Positions 1 through 16,463 of a stretch of DNA of 22,115 nt are shown one piece after another. The number at the start of each line of letters is the position of its first letter. Position 1 is the stretch's first letter. The notes under the pieces are model-generated. The model did not search any database, had not been told where the DNA came from, and saw only the letters and a program-made list of their open reading frames with translations. The position numbers were made by a program, and so were the translations under genes. Source of the stretch: Jatrophihabitans sp. (GTDB taxonomy: Bacteria > Actinomycetota > Actinomycetes > Mycobacteriales > Jatrophihabitantaceae); contig JAOPVG010000588.1 of NCBI GenBank assembly GCA_025966255.1, positions 1 to 22,115 of the forward strand, given 5' to 3'.

Positions 1-2497
<2,497 letters not shown>

Positions 2498-2562: not shown

Positions 2563-2676
2563 ACCCCTCCAGAGTGGCCTCACCCGCGCGGTCCTGGTGC
2601 CTGAGAGGTTCCGGGGAAGTTGCCCCTTCGGCGCTGGCGCATCGTCGTCGATGCTGGTGCCAGCTCTCCCGCGCGG
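2563..2676 (-). ncRNA. Glycine riboswitch (gcvT motif), single aptamer
   Basis: Cis-regulatory aptamer in the gcvP leader, about 65 nt upstream of the start codon. On the minus strand the family landmarks occur in order: GCGGGAGAG, a hairpin with stem GCATCG/CGATGC, CGCCGAAGGGGCAA, then CTCTCAGGCACCAGGACCG and ACTCTGGAGGGG. I see only one complete aptamer core. Downstream, GTCACC and GGTGAC (about 2530-2550) can form a 6-bp hairpin before the GGAG ribosome site, a possible expression platform. An extended -10-like TGG-TAACGT (2695-2703) would start transcription about 10 nt before the aptamer, but I see no clear -35. Whether glycine turns expression on or off cannot be read directly; ON control is usual for gcv genes. 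Confidence 0.93.
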
Positions 2677-2759
2677 TGTTATCAGCCACCGTCGACGTTA
2701 CCAGCGGCGTTGCGCTACGCGCGACACGGAGGGTGGACGCGCCGGTGTGTCGCGGTCGG

Positions 2760-4038: not shown

Positions 4039-4800
4039 TCAGCTCCCGCCAACGACCTCGCGGAGGCCGATCTGGACGAGGGCGGCATGCAGCCGAACTG
4101 AAAGCGCGGCGAGCTCGCGCACCGTCTCCTCGGCCCGCGCCTTCGCCTCTCCCCCACGCTGGCGACCCATCGGGCCGACAACCTGAGAGAACAGGCCGAC
4201 CTCGCGTTCGGCGGCCGATCGGAAGGCGCGCAGGTGCCGACCTTCGAGCCCGAAACGGGCCAGGTCGGCGACGATCTTGGCGACGGCGAGAGCGTCGTCG
4301 TCGTAGTGGCCGCCGGGCTTGGAGCTGATCAGGCCGAACTGCTCGAGCTCGGTGAGTTGCTCGCTGCGCAGGCCGGCCGCGTTGAGCAGTTCCTCCTTGG
4401 ACAGGCGCATCGCAGCGGGCGCCGGCCGGAAGTGTTCGGCCGTCGGGGCGTTGCCCTGGATCGAGGCCACTGCGACGTGCGCGGCCCGGGGACTGTCCGT
4501 CGACGTGCCGGGCGGCACGAGCCCGCGGTCGATCGCGTCGAGCTGGTCCTTGATGACCCGCAGCGGCAGGTAGTGATCGCGCTGCTGCGAGAGGACGTAG
4601 TGCAGGCGCGCGACATCGCCGGAGGAGAACTTGCGATACCCCGACGGCGTGCGTTCGGGCTGCACCAGCCCCTCGGTCTCGAGGAAGCGGATCTTGCTGA
4701 TGGTGAGATCGGGGTACTCGACCTTGAGGTGGGCGAGGACGTCGCCGATCGTGAGTGTGGCTGTCGAGGTGCCGCTCGCCGCAGCCCCCAACGGAGTCAT
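4039..4800 (-). CDS. ftsR: MerR-family regulator, FtsR/Rv1828-like
   Basis: Transcriptional regulator of 253 residues. An N-terminal MerR winged-helix domain (TIGDVLAHLKVEYPDLTISKIRFLE, then GLVQPERTPSGYRKFSSGDVARL, within about residues 16-75) is followed by the QRDHYLPLRVIKDQLD helix and a C-terminal domain (HLRAFRSAAEREVGLF...). It matches M. tuberculosis Rv1828 and Corynebacterium FtsR; FtsR is known to activate ftsZ, so a role in cell-division gene control is inferred. I prefer ATG 4800, because CGGAGTGAGG sits just upstream and the ATG overlaps the stop of a micro-ORF (ATGA). ATG 4821 would add seven residues but has no ribosome site. The start region lies at the end of a tandemly duplicated 65-bp unit. 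Confidence 0.9.
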   Translation of the reverse strand: MTPLGAAASGTSTATLTIGDVLAHLKVEYPDLTISKIRFLETEGLVQPERTPSGYRKFSSGDVARLHYVLSQQRDHYLPLRVIKDQLDAIDRGLVPPGTSTDSPRAAHVAVASIQGNAPTAEHFRPAPAAMRLSKEELLNAAGLRSEQLTELEQFGLISSKPGGHYDDDALAVAKIVADLARFGLEGRHLRAFRSAAEREVGLFSQVVGPMGRQRGGEAKARAEETVRELAALSVRLHAALVQIGLREVVGGS

Positions 4801-4865
4801 GCCCTCACTCCGTTCGGCCATGCGGAGACGTTATGCCGCCGAATCGCTCCGCAAGCGTCGCTCAT
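4797..4865 (-). CDS. Candidate 22-codon micro-ORF (copy 2), coupled to ftsR
   Basis: ATG 4865 to TGA 4797-4799. The peptide begins MSDACGAIRRHN and ends WPNGVRA. CGGAGTGAGG lies just before its ATG, a good ribosome site. Its ATG overlaps the stop of the previous micro-ORF and its TGA overlaps the ftsR ATG (ATGA at both ends). It differs from copy 1 at three bases: one silent change, D to N and Y to N. That pattern gives no evidence of selection on the peptide. It may serve only to carry ribosomes from garA to ftsR, or may be a by-product of the duplication. Confidence 0.35.
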   Translation of the reverse strand: MSDACGAIRRHNVSAWPNGVRA

Positions 4866-4927
4866 GCCCTCACTCCGTACGGCCATGCGGAGACGTCATG
4901 CCGCCGGATCGCTCCGCAAGCGTCGCT
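4798..4927. repeat. Tandem direct repeat, two copies of a 65-bp unit
   Basis: Units 4798-4862 and 4863-4927 are identical except at three positions. Each contains a ribosome site plus start codon (CGGAGTGAGGGCATGA on the minus strand), an inverted pair GCGGAG/CTCCGC about 19 nt apart, and the core GCGACGCTTGCGGAGCGA. The unit boundaries fall exactly at GCATGA stop/start overlaps, and the unit length equals a 69-nt ORF minus the 4-nt overlap. It fills the whole space between the garA-like stop and the ftsR start. Confidence 0.95.
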
Positions 4928-4930
4928 CAT
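4862..4930 (-). CDS. Candidate 22-codon micro-ORF (copy 1), coupled to the garA-like gene
   Basis: ATG 4930 to TGA 4862-4864. The peptide begins MSDACGAIRRHD and ends WPYGVRA. Its ATG overlaps the garA-like stop codon (GCATGA) and its own TGA overlaps the ATG of copy 2. I recognise no domain. Together with copy 2 it makes an unbroken series of overlapping stop and start codons from garA to ftsR. Whether the peptide is made or useful cannot be judged from one genome. Confidence 0.33.
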   Translation of the reverse strand: MSDACGAIRRHDVSAWPYGVRA

Positions 4931-5448
4931 GCCTTCGCGCCAACGCCGGTGCGGACCGCGGCGGTGAGGTAGACGAGCCGGAACTTGCCGATCTGCACCT
5001 CGTCGCCCCCGGACAGGGGTGCGGCGTCGATGCGCTCTCGATTGACGTAGGTGCCGTTGAGCGAACCCACGTCGTGGACGGTGTAGCCGCTGCCTTCGCG
5101 GCGGAACTCTGCATGCCTGCGGGACACCGTCACATCGTCCAGGAAGATGTCGCTGTCCGGGTGACGACCCGCCGAGGTGACGTCCTGATCGAGCAGGAAT
5201 CGGCTGCCGGCGTTGGGTCCGCGCTTGACCACGAGCAGCGCCGAACCCGGCGTGAGCGCATCCACCGCGCCCTGGTGCGCCTCGGCCGAGAACTCGGTGT
5301 CGACATCCGGAAGCGATCCGGTCGTGCTGATCGTGCTCGTCACATCGGGACCCGACGCAGCCACGGGCAGTGCGGCGCCACAGTTGGCGCAGAAGTGACT
5401 GCCAGGCAGGTTCTCCGTGCCACAAGCGGTACAGAACACGCGCGTCAC
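4927..5448 (-). CDS. garA: FHA-domain protein, GarA/OdhI-like, with N-terminal zinc ribbon
   Basis: Protein of 173 residues. GarA/OdhI proteins bind and inhibit 2-oxoglutarate dehydrogenase and redirect glutamate metabolism when unphosphorylated, under control of Ser/Thr kinases. The FHA domain (about residues 68-162) is nearly that of GarA: LLVVKRGPNAGSRFLLDQ, GRHPDSDIFLDDVTVSRRHAEF and SLNGTYVNRE, with the phosphothreonine-binding residues R95, S109, H112 and N131. The N-terminus differs: a CxxC...CxxC zinc ribbon (C6, C9, C20, C23), and no ETTSVF phosphorylation motif; a TSTISTTG stretch (residues 38-44) lies in the equivalent linker. GTG 5448 is the longest plausible start; GTG 5439 (second residue F) sits better behind the GAAGG box. 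It lies between gcvH and ftsR as in mycobacteria. The gene name rests on synteny and the FHA domain. Confidence 0.88.
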   Translation of the reverse strand: MTRVFCTACGTENLPGSHFCANCGAALPVAASGPDVTSTISTTGSLPDVDTEFSAEAHQGAVDALTPGSALLVVKRGPNAGSRFLLDQDVTSAGRHPDSDIFLDDVTVSRRHAEFRREGSGYTVHDVGSLNGTYVNRERIDAAPLSGGDEVQIGKFRLVYLTAAVRTGVGAKA

Positions 5449-5518
5449 CCTTCGTCTTCGGTCACGGTCGATCGCGGGGAACGCCGTCGCAGCAAGTGCG
5501 GATTCGGTCGGTGGGCCG

Positions 5519-5548
5519 AGCCTAGGACGGGCTCGTGGGGAGGGTCAA
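5519..5548 (-). promoter_or_regulatory. Predicted promoter of the garA-like gene
   Basis: Minus-strand TTGACC (5543-5548), an 18-bp spacer, then TAGGCT (5519-5524), matching the actinobacterial TANNNT -10. It sits in the 171-bp gap between gcvH and garA, about 70 nt upstream of the GTG, and would drive garA and the micro-ORF/ftsR chain separately from gcvH. A short inverted pair (CGAGCC...GGCTCG) overlaps the -10. Confidence 0.6.
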
Positions 5549-15429: not shown

Positions 15430-15522
15430 TCACCACTGGCCGGACGCCGAGGTTACCGCAGCGCGCGGGGTCATCCTCGAGCCTGCGACTCTGCTCATCG
15501 ACCCGCCCGCGACTCTGCTCAT
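15430..15522 (-). CDS. Candidate 30-codon micro-ORF between xerD and parA
   Basis: ATG 15522 overlaps the xerD stop (ATGA) and the frame ends at TGA 15430-15432, 28 nt before the parA start. The peptide opens [16 protein letters not shown], encoded by a 24-bp tandem repeat, so it has two in-frame ATG codons one repeat apart. No ribosome site other than coupling to xerD is evident and no family is recognised. It could equally be non-coding spacer that happens to be open. Confidence 0.25.
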
Positions 15523-15532
15523 CTACCCGCCC
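15485..15532. repeat. 24-bp tandem repeat at the xerD 3' end
   Basis: Two adjacent copies, 15485-15508 and 15509-15532, differ at one base (ATCG versus ATCT after CTGCTC). The second copy includes the last codons and stop of xerD; the first extends the pattern into the gap. Each copy holds a TGATG/ATGA-type stop/start overlap on the minus strand. Confidence 0.93.
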
Positions 15533-16463
15533 GCGGGTGTGCACTCGCATACACCTCGCGCAGCCGGTCGACGGTCACGAGCGTGTAGATCTGGGTGGTC
15601 GTGACCGACGCGTGCCCGAGCAGTTCCTGCACCACCCGAACGTCCGCGCCGCCCTCCATGAGGTGGGTGGCGAAGGAGTGACGCAGCGTGTGCGGCGAGA
15701 TCCCGGCCGCCAGCCCGGCGCGCTCAGCGGCCGTACGCAGAACCACCCACGCCGACTGCCGCGACAACGGACCGCCGCGCGCGTTCAGGAACAGCCGCGG
15801 CGTACCCCGTCCCGCGCTGGCCAGCTCGGGCCGGGCCTTGGCCAGATACGCCGAAACGGCCTTGGCCGCGAACGATCCGACCGGGACGCGCCGCTGCTTG
15901 CCGCCCTTTCCGGCCAGCACGACGCTGTTGTCGATGAGGTCGAGTTCGTCGATGTCGAGGCCGACCGCTTCGGAGATGCGCGCGCCGGTGCCGTACAGCA
16001 GTTCCAGCAGGGCGCGGTCGCGCATCGCCAGAGACGTGCGGGCGTACCCGGCGGCGTCCAGCAACCGCTCGACGTCGTCGACGGTGATCGCCTTGGGCAG
16101 GCGGCGGGGCGGGGCGGCCGGGCGCACGTCGCTGGACACGTCGACCGGCACCAGGCCCTCGCGCAGCGCGAACCGGTGCAGGCCACGAACCGCGACCACG
16201 GCCCGCGCCGCCGACGTGGCCGACAGGGCTGGGTGATCGTCGTCGCCCTCGCGCAGGTGGGCGAGGAAGCCCCCCACCGTGGCCGCGTCGATGTCGCTGA
16301 CCGACCCGATGCCATGCGCATCGAGGTAGTTCACGTAGCGGGCGAGATCGCGCCGGTAAGAGCTCAGCGTGTTGGCGGCGACGCCCCGCTCGACGGCGAG
16401 GTGGTCGAAGTAGCCGCGCACCACTGCGCCCGTCGTCAGCCGGCTGGTCGCCGCGGTCGGCAT
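15519..16463 (-). CDS. xerD: Tyrosine recombinase XerD
   Basis: Site-specific recombinase that resolves chromosome dimers at dif, 314 residues. The N-terminal SAM-like DNA-binding domain (about 10-105) is followed by the catalytic domain with all expected residues: R162 ([12 protein letters not shown]), K186 ([11 protein letters not shown]), H258 and R261 ([13 protein letters not shown]), H284 ([14 protein letters not shown]) and the nucleophile Y293. ATG 16463 starts 4 bp after the NUDIX stop. It occupies the position of M. tuberculosis Rv1701. Nothing suggests an integrase of a mobile element: it lies within a conserved core operon. Confidence 0.96.

Follow-up and report, generated by a model that had tools for sequence, protein, structure and literature searches.

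A dispersed 65-bp repeat, probably of the MIRU class, with a stop/start-coupled micro-ORF between garA and ftsR in a Jatrophihabitans-like genome

Introduction

Two tandem copies of a 65-bp unit, each holding a 22-codon micro-ORF, lie between garA and ftsR on a 22,115-nt stretch of DNA from Jatrophihabitans sp. (contig JAOPVG010000588.1, positions 1 to 22,115; hereafter the window). Stop codons and start codons overlap at every boundary, so that one frame could hand over to the next all the way from garA to ftsR. This raises the question of whether the array belongs to these two genes or is one instance of something more widely spread.

MIRUs are best known as markers for typing tuberculosis. 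The use of DTGA as a target-site name comes from Supply et al. 1997. MIRUs have been characterised as short repeats of apparent mobility whose insertion at a start codon couples an ORF inside the repeat to the following gene at -4, with an impact on that gene that is likely minimal (PMC12548453). Repeats of this type measure 40-100 bp and occupy 41 locations in H37Rv; the same source calls their exact function not well understood and reports that the fpg1 mRNA level depends on the length of the repeats in front of the gene (PMC2734929). MIRUs are also present in 5′ UTRs of M. bovis (PMC4128351).

Results

A two-unit array between garA and ftsR

Minus-strand positions 4930-4797 are filled by the two units (Table 1), and reading that strand bears out a preliminary description of two tandem 22-codon micro-ORFs that form an unbroken stop/start series. 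The garA TGA lies inside the ATGA at 4930-4927 and thus overlaps the first micro-ORF start. Unit 1 translates as MSDACGAIRRHDVSAWPYGVRA followed by a stop, whose TGA lies inside the ATGA at 4865; unit 2 translates as MSDACGAIRRHNVSAWPNGVRA followed by a stop, whose TGA lies inside the ftsR ATGA at 4800. The duplication of a 65-bp unit, also described earlier, is confirmed by TRF on the window (period 65, 2.1 copies), and its score of 253 with 95% matches argues against a chance repeat. The units are alike at 62 of 65 bases, and two of their three differences alter the peptide.

Table 1. Features at the garA-ftsR junction, in window positions; duplex energies were computed against an assumed anti-Shine-Dalgarno sequence
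Feature	Position	Strand	Remark
garA, upstream gene, FHA domain and zinc ribbon	4927..5448	-	Pfam run on the longer open frame 4927-5544
Unit 1, 22-codon micro-ORF, 69 nt with stop	4862..4930	-	ATGA overlap with garA stop and unit 2 start
Unit 1 core, 22 nt conserved, ATGAGCGACGCTTGCGGAGCGA	4909..4930	-	part common to mycobacterial units
CGGAGTGAGG, Shine-Dalgarno-like site of unit 1, before unit 2 ATG 4865	4868..4877	-	duplex -8.9 kcal/mol
Unit 2, 22-codon micro-ORF	4797..4865	-	ATGA overlap with unit 1 stop and ftsR start
Unit 2 core, 22 nt conserved	4844..4865	-	
CGGAGTGAGG, Shine-Dalgarno-like site of unit 2, before ftsR ATG 4800	4803..4812	-	duplex -10.4 kcal/mol
ftsR, downstream gene, MerR-type regulator	4039..4800	-	

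Each copy had also been credited with its own ribosome site. CGGAGTGAGG does occur in each copy, but it precedes the next start: the ribosome site of the first micro-ORF is GAAGG within garA (-4.1 kcal/mol against the same assumed anti-Shine-Dalgarno sequence), so each unit holds the site for the next start and not for its own. An alternative in-frame ftsR ATG at 4821 (minus strand), within unit 2, had been overlooked. A start there would add an MAERSEG extension to FtsR if a gene caller takes the longest frame.

The gene order on this strand is gcvH, garA, ftsR, a bifunctional nuclease, a second MerR-type regulator and gcvP, which fits the conserved odhI/garA-ftsR-nuclease-MerR cluster described in PMC6683498. 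The gcvP gene (2-2497, minus strand), which shares this cluster with gcvH, garA and ftsR, has a glycine riboswitch aptamer just upstream of it (window 2579-2681, minus strand, 66.5 bits). We also observed a 24-bp tandem repeat at window 15481-15535 (2.3 copies, score 96).

Copies precede unrelated genes across the genome

What the preliminary description had missed above all is that the unit has copies elsewhere. We searched the genome, a draft of 3.79 Mb in 631 contigs that is 79% complete, and obtained 18 matches, some partial, with the 17 others at E values from 2e-22 to 8e-4; all 18 were inspected with their surroundings. The 65-bp unit is thus a short repeat, within the MIRU range of 40-100 bp, that occurs at many chromosomal places.

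Behind 17 of the 18 copies lies an ORF in the same direction that is at least 106 codons long (the exception is L005), and 16 of these 17 ORFs carry a Pfam domain (L006 is without). The upstream ORF stops inside the 5′ DTGA of the unit in 10 of the 18 (L001, L004, L005, L008, L009, L010, L013, L014, L016 and L018). The micro-ORF TGA overlaps the downstream start at -4 in 14 of the 18, which is the MIRU arrangement of an insertion at a start codon with a coupled internal ORF; 12 of these overlaps were flagged by script, and L001 (a chain of two) and L004 (72 nt) were identified by eye. L010 lacks one base and ends 4 nt ahead of the downstream start, the micro-ORF of L016 stops directly before it (0 nt), and L015 is missing its 5′ end. 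Although L016, L017 and L018 match the window's unit over the core only (21 to 35 bases), L017 and L018 hold coupled micro-ORFs of 26 codons with stop.

The proteins encoded downstream include SmpB, a phosphoribosyltransferase, BacA, a cupin, a UvrD-like helicase and a thiolase-like protein. They also include a DUF2469 protein behind RNase HII, a thioredoxin behind a ClpB-like protein, an FAD oxidoreductase behind an ABC ATPase and a PLP decarboxylase behind an arginyl-tRNA synthetase. Because copies precede so many unrelated genes, neither garA nor ftsR is a fixed partner of the unit. Of the same-genus genomes, G001 gave no match and G002 matched mostly over the core only.

Relatives have empty sites at the same junctions

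We compared 30 garA-ftsR loci, including that of the window, and the unit was absent from all 29 other junctions examined. At L020, in the sister genome G002 of the window's genus, garA and ftsR overlap by a bare ATGA with no unit, an empty site; L021 to L025 likewise have a 4-nt overlap (GTGA or ATGA). The array had been proposed as a device linking GarA to FtsR, to be checked by counting units at this junction in relatives. With the unit in front of unrelated genes and a count of 0/29, that proposal is not supported.

Three further junctions of the window's genome were examined in up to seven relatives each. Between the luciferase-like gene and bacA, a bare ATGA overlap is present in L188, L189, L192, L193 and L194, and spacers of about 50 bases are present in L190 and L191. 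At the ABC/DAO junction, L206 has an in-frame GTGA overlap and L208 a GTGA in the same phase; L204, L205 and L209 have other short spacers, and L207, being incomplete, was left out. At ftsX-smpB, four of seven relatives were usable (L196, L201 and L202 were set aside), and in these (L197 to L200) a TAG or TAA is followed by 2 bases and the start codon, while the window's genome has TAG, 2 bases and then the unit. Empty sites in relatives were therefore found at all four of the junctions examined, with other spacers in some relatives. Such junctions are the trace expected if units insert into start codons, many of which overlap a stop.

Some of the unrelated spacers are themselves micro-ORFs. 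Those at the garA-ftsR junctions L033/L034 and L035 and at the bacA junction L191 (30, 19 and 18 codons) have stop/start overlaps at both ends, with L034 read by eye. Searched against three genomes, the L033 insert matched itself, its G018 counterpart and two weak partial stretches, with no clear repeat, and the L035 insert matched only itself in three genomes. These spacers may be remnants of old elements that have decayed, or may be solutions that arose independently.

A wider family in mycobacteria and relatives

Among 298 genomes of the order, 13 contain the exact 21-nt core, the window's being one of them, and none contains a reversed control pattern. In named genomes we found the core in at least 110 stretches, of which 80 are listed; these listed matches come mostly from Mycolicibacterium and Mycobacterium, with some from Pseudonocardia and Jatrophihabitans and single records from Catelliglobosispora and a Geodermatophilaceae MAG. 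A full-unit pattern had no match in the named genome contigs, a set from which the own or very near records may be excluded.

The 80 listed arrays hold 101 cores. The spacing between neighbouring cores among these matches (n=21) is 65 in 12 cases, 30 to 33 in eight and 133 in one. The mycobacterial unit and the window's unit have in common the core, the 65-bp period, the 69-nt micro-ORF and both DTGA ends. Their consensus sequences agree at 22/22 core positions, an identity that on the mycobacterial side is by construction because copies were chosen by exact core (those of the window's genome were not), and at 19 of the other 47 positions ungapped; a gapped alignment of the 3′ parts gives p 0.01 against shuffles. 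A search with a mycobacterial unit gave matches in 32 of the 118 genomes in the genus of G296, and in 21 of these the match spans at least 58 of 69 bases. We infer that this genus is mycobacterial from the units and match positions that it shares with listed records (e.g., G147 with L142).

Among the matches listed, the 80 arrays fall into 52 junction clusters. Copy number (1 to 3) differs between species in 8 of the 16 multi-member clusters, where the eight include one 33-bp core pair, one contig-edge copy, one truncated second unit and one cluster with partly masked arrays. As with MIRUs, the tandem copies thus vary in number, here between species.

Core-only tandem arrays were seen at L065/L135 (30 bp), L055 (31 bp), L083 (32 bp) and L127 (33 bp), and some of them follow stop codons as CTGA, uncoupled; they are probably a shortened form of the element. 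By eye, two junctions (L051 in G020 with L002 of the window's genome; L054/L111 with L016 of the window's genome) seem to hold core-bearing units both in the window's genome and in a different genus; each may be an old insertion or a site that was used more than once.

Stop/start phase is mostly kept, also by length variants

Taking the best downstream frame on the same strand, which could be scored in 67 of the 80 listed arrays (CTGA and masked arrays included; nine antisense arrays and four with too little sequence excluded), we found 51 coupled, 13 fused and three in the third phase (binomial P 1e-8, a value that, like the P value given below, overstates the evidence because junctions recur across species, with 52 clusters among 80 listed arrays, and copies are not independent). 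Among the matches listed, the upstream frame ends in the unit's TGA in 63 of 65 arrays.

A start-based test, with three masked and nine CTGA arrays set aside, covered the 68 unmasked DTGA arrays among the matches listed and gave 48 coupled, 14 fused, three other and three at contig edges. With the edges excluded, 62/65 are coupled or fused, compared to 502/1002 control sites, which are gene-ending ATGA or GTGA sites that include spurious open frames of high-GC DNA and so serve as a rough yardstick. Length variants, defined as unmasked DTGA arrays whose micro-ORF is not 69 nt, comprise six coupled, 14 fused, three other (L088, L094 and L116) and one at a contig edge among the matches listed; 20/23 are coupled or fused (P 4e-4 against the same 502/1002). 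L116, scored as other, looks coupled by eye. One junction (L089, L107, L116 and L150, with L107 masked) presents three forms, namely a coupled unit of full length, a shortened one and a fusion in frame.

Nine of the 80 listed arrays begin with CTGA, which offers no start codon, and six of these nine are neither coupled nor fused. The earlier expectation that coupling would survive any copy number holds for most of the relatives' arrays, at 1 to 3 copies, but not for all.

Ribosome site, peptide and RNA structure

The ribosome site that a unit carries is on average stronger than the one before it: mean duplex energies, all against the assumed anti-Shine-Dalgarno sequence, are -9.65 versus -6.56 for 12 units of the window's genome and, among the listed core-bearing units, -9.17 (54) versus -7.23 (46). 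The native ftsR start of the empty site L020 has a duplex of -6.5 kcal/mol.

Site entropy outside the core, taken by codon position (1/2/3), amounts to 0.72/0.63/0.56 in 13 units of the window's genome and 0.74/0.76/0.75 in 50 mycobacterial units among the matches listed. The lack of a third-position excess disfavours selection on the peptide. No in-frame stop was found in the distinct 69-nt units (0/13 from the window's genome and 0/50 mycobacterial, among the matches listed), where a neutral substitution simulation expects 2.5 and 11. In a column-shuffle control, the absence of stops in the units of the window's genome gave p 0.80, and among the mycobacterial units both other frames were likewise short of stops. 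Because this control does not make the lack of stops specific to frame 0, we take the stop-free frame as weak evidence by itself and do not rely on it.

Rfam at the gathering threshold returned nothing at the unit. Short pairings were noted by eye, namely CGCT/AGCG (4 bp) in the core and a CCTCGC-TT-GCGAGG hairpin in some mycobacterial units.

Discussion

We favor, at a probability of roughly 0.85, the reading that the unit belongs to the MIRU class, as a small and dispersed insertion element that would sit in operons by carrying ribosomes across itself. Because the scattered copies each hold a micro-ORF that could serve for hand-over, the unit resembles the mycobacterial repeat class and not a special garA/ftsR switch. 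With the MIRUs as described in PMC12548453 and PMC2734929 it has in common that it is a dispersed short repeat, in tandem at some loci, placed at start codons, with an internal ORF at -4 and a variable copy number; it differs in being 65 bp with a core of its own and in occurring in a Jatrophihabitans-like genome as well as in many other mycobacteria, and it is likened to the M. tuberculosis MIRU by description. As in ordinary overlapping stop/start coupling, every boundary here is ATGA or GTGA with a nearby Shine-Dalgarno-like site, but here an inserted, repeated micro-ORF takes the place of an ordinary gene as the coupled upstream frame. Searches of open-access literature, a scope that leaves subscription papers mostly outside, returned no mention of the 16-nt string GACGCTTGCGGAGCGA, none of MIRU-like actinobacterial repeats, and none that joined MIRU copy number, gene expression, senX3 and translation. 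On this reading, the element is a new case, in a Jatrophihabitans-like genome, of a kind already known.

We propose that the element inserts into the start codon of a gene, in many cases one that overlaps the stop of the gene before it (DTGA), and that insertion would occur in one orientation and leave DTGA at both ends. The copy at garA-ftsR would then have doubled in tandem. Because each unit ends in a Shine-Dalgarno-like site and a TGA overlapping the next ATG, ribosomes finishing garA could restart via units 1 and 2 and so reach ftsR; the units would part two overlapping genes by 130 bp with the coupling preserved. Dispersal and empty sites, both legible in the genomes compared, point to mobility, and the spread would be by transposition or recombination. 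The constant orientation and the stop/start phase, kept also by most length variants, suggest selection for coupling if the micro-ORFs are actually translated. The 22-residue peptide is probably a by-product.

The idea that the array is a dedicated translational relay, in which the number of units sets the GarA:FtsR ratio, draws on several observations: the overlap phase holds whatever the copy number, copy number varies at similar junctions in relatives, and ftsR is reported to lie always downstream of odhI/garA, so that a functional link might exist (PMC6683498). Repeat length can also go with a neighbor's expression, since M. tuberculosis fpg1 mRNA is higher behind longer repeats (PMC2734929); however, the effect described there is on mRNA level and not on translation. 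A relay of this kind would not account for units in front of unrelated genes or for 29/29 other garA-ftsR junctions examined, the sister genome's included, without a unit, and we consider it very unlikely. A change in the GarA:FtsR ratio is a conceivable side effect, but nothing in these results points to it as what the element is for. That the 22-residue peptide is a functional small protein, produced from many loci, is also very unlikely: the frame is open in 63/63 distinct 69-nt units examined, but third codon positions show no excess of change, units are often fused or shortened, two of the three bases that distinguish the window's units alter the peptide, and between the window's genome and the mycobacteria the peptides resemble each other mainly in MSDACGA, the start that the core encodes.

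REP elements with RAYT transposases are short dispersed repeats near gene ends, and the present element is likewise short, dispersed and near gene ends. A REP/BIME- or terminator-like element that acts through DNA or RNA structure and is moved by a RAYT (Y1) transposase would suit this distribution, the CGCT/AGCG pairing of the core and the hairpin read by eye in some mycobacterial units. The dyad symmetry appears weak, however, with the two-unit RNA folding no better than shuffles (z 0.56); no Y1_Tnp match was found in 24 family genomes, made up of the window's (79% complete) and 23 others, several of them incomplete; and the fixed orientation and phase to genes would be left unexplained. We regard this origin as very unlikely too. 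An artefact of a fragmented draft could come to mind with 631 contigs and 79% completeness, and yet the window's two units differ at three sites and 65-bp-spaced units recur in other assemblies, some of few contigs (e.g., G325 and G379), which makes it scarcely credible.

Beyond the reading of a MIRU-class insertion element, we tentatively suggest, at clearly less than even odds, that mycobacteria and the Jatrophihabitans-like lineage have one family of start-codon elements in common. Its target would be the stop/start overlap, and its decay would be filtered by translation, with micro-ORFs of 36 to 87 nt coupled, or else fused, and the third phase rare. Because the unit's ribosome site is stronger than the one before it, such an element might act as a portable ribosome reloading station.

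These units also call for care in annotation, since the internal ATG may give ftsR and other genes false N-terminal extensions. If the suggestion of a reloading station is true, inserting or multiplying a unit could retune one gene of an operon. A related element outside mycobacteria, with empty sites, arrays of 1-3 copies and length variants that keep the phase at similar junctions, offers a natural library for tests of ribosome hand-over in hosts that are harmless.
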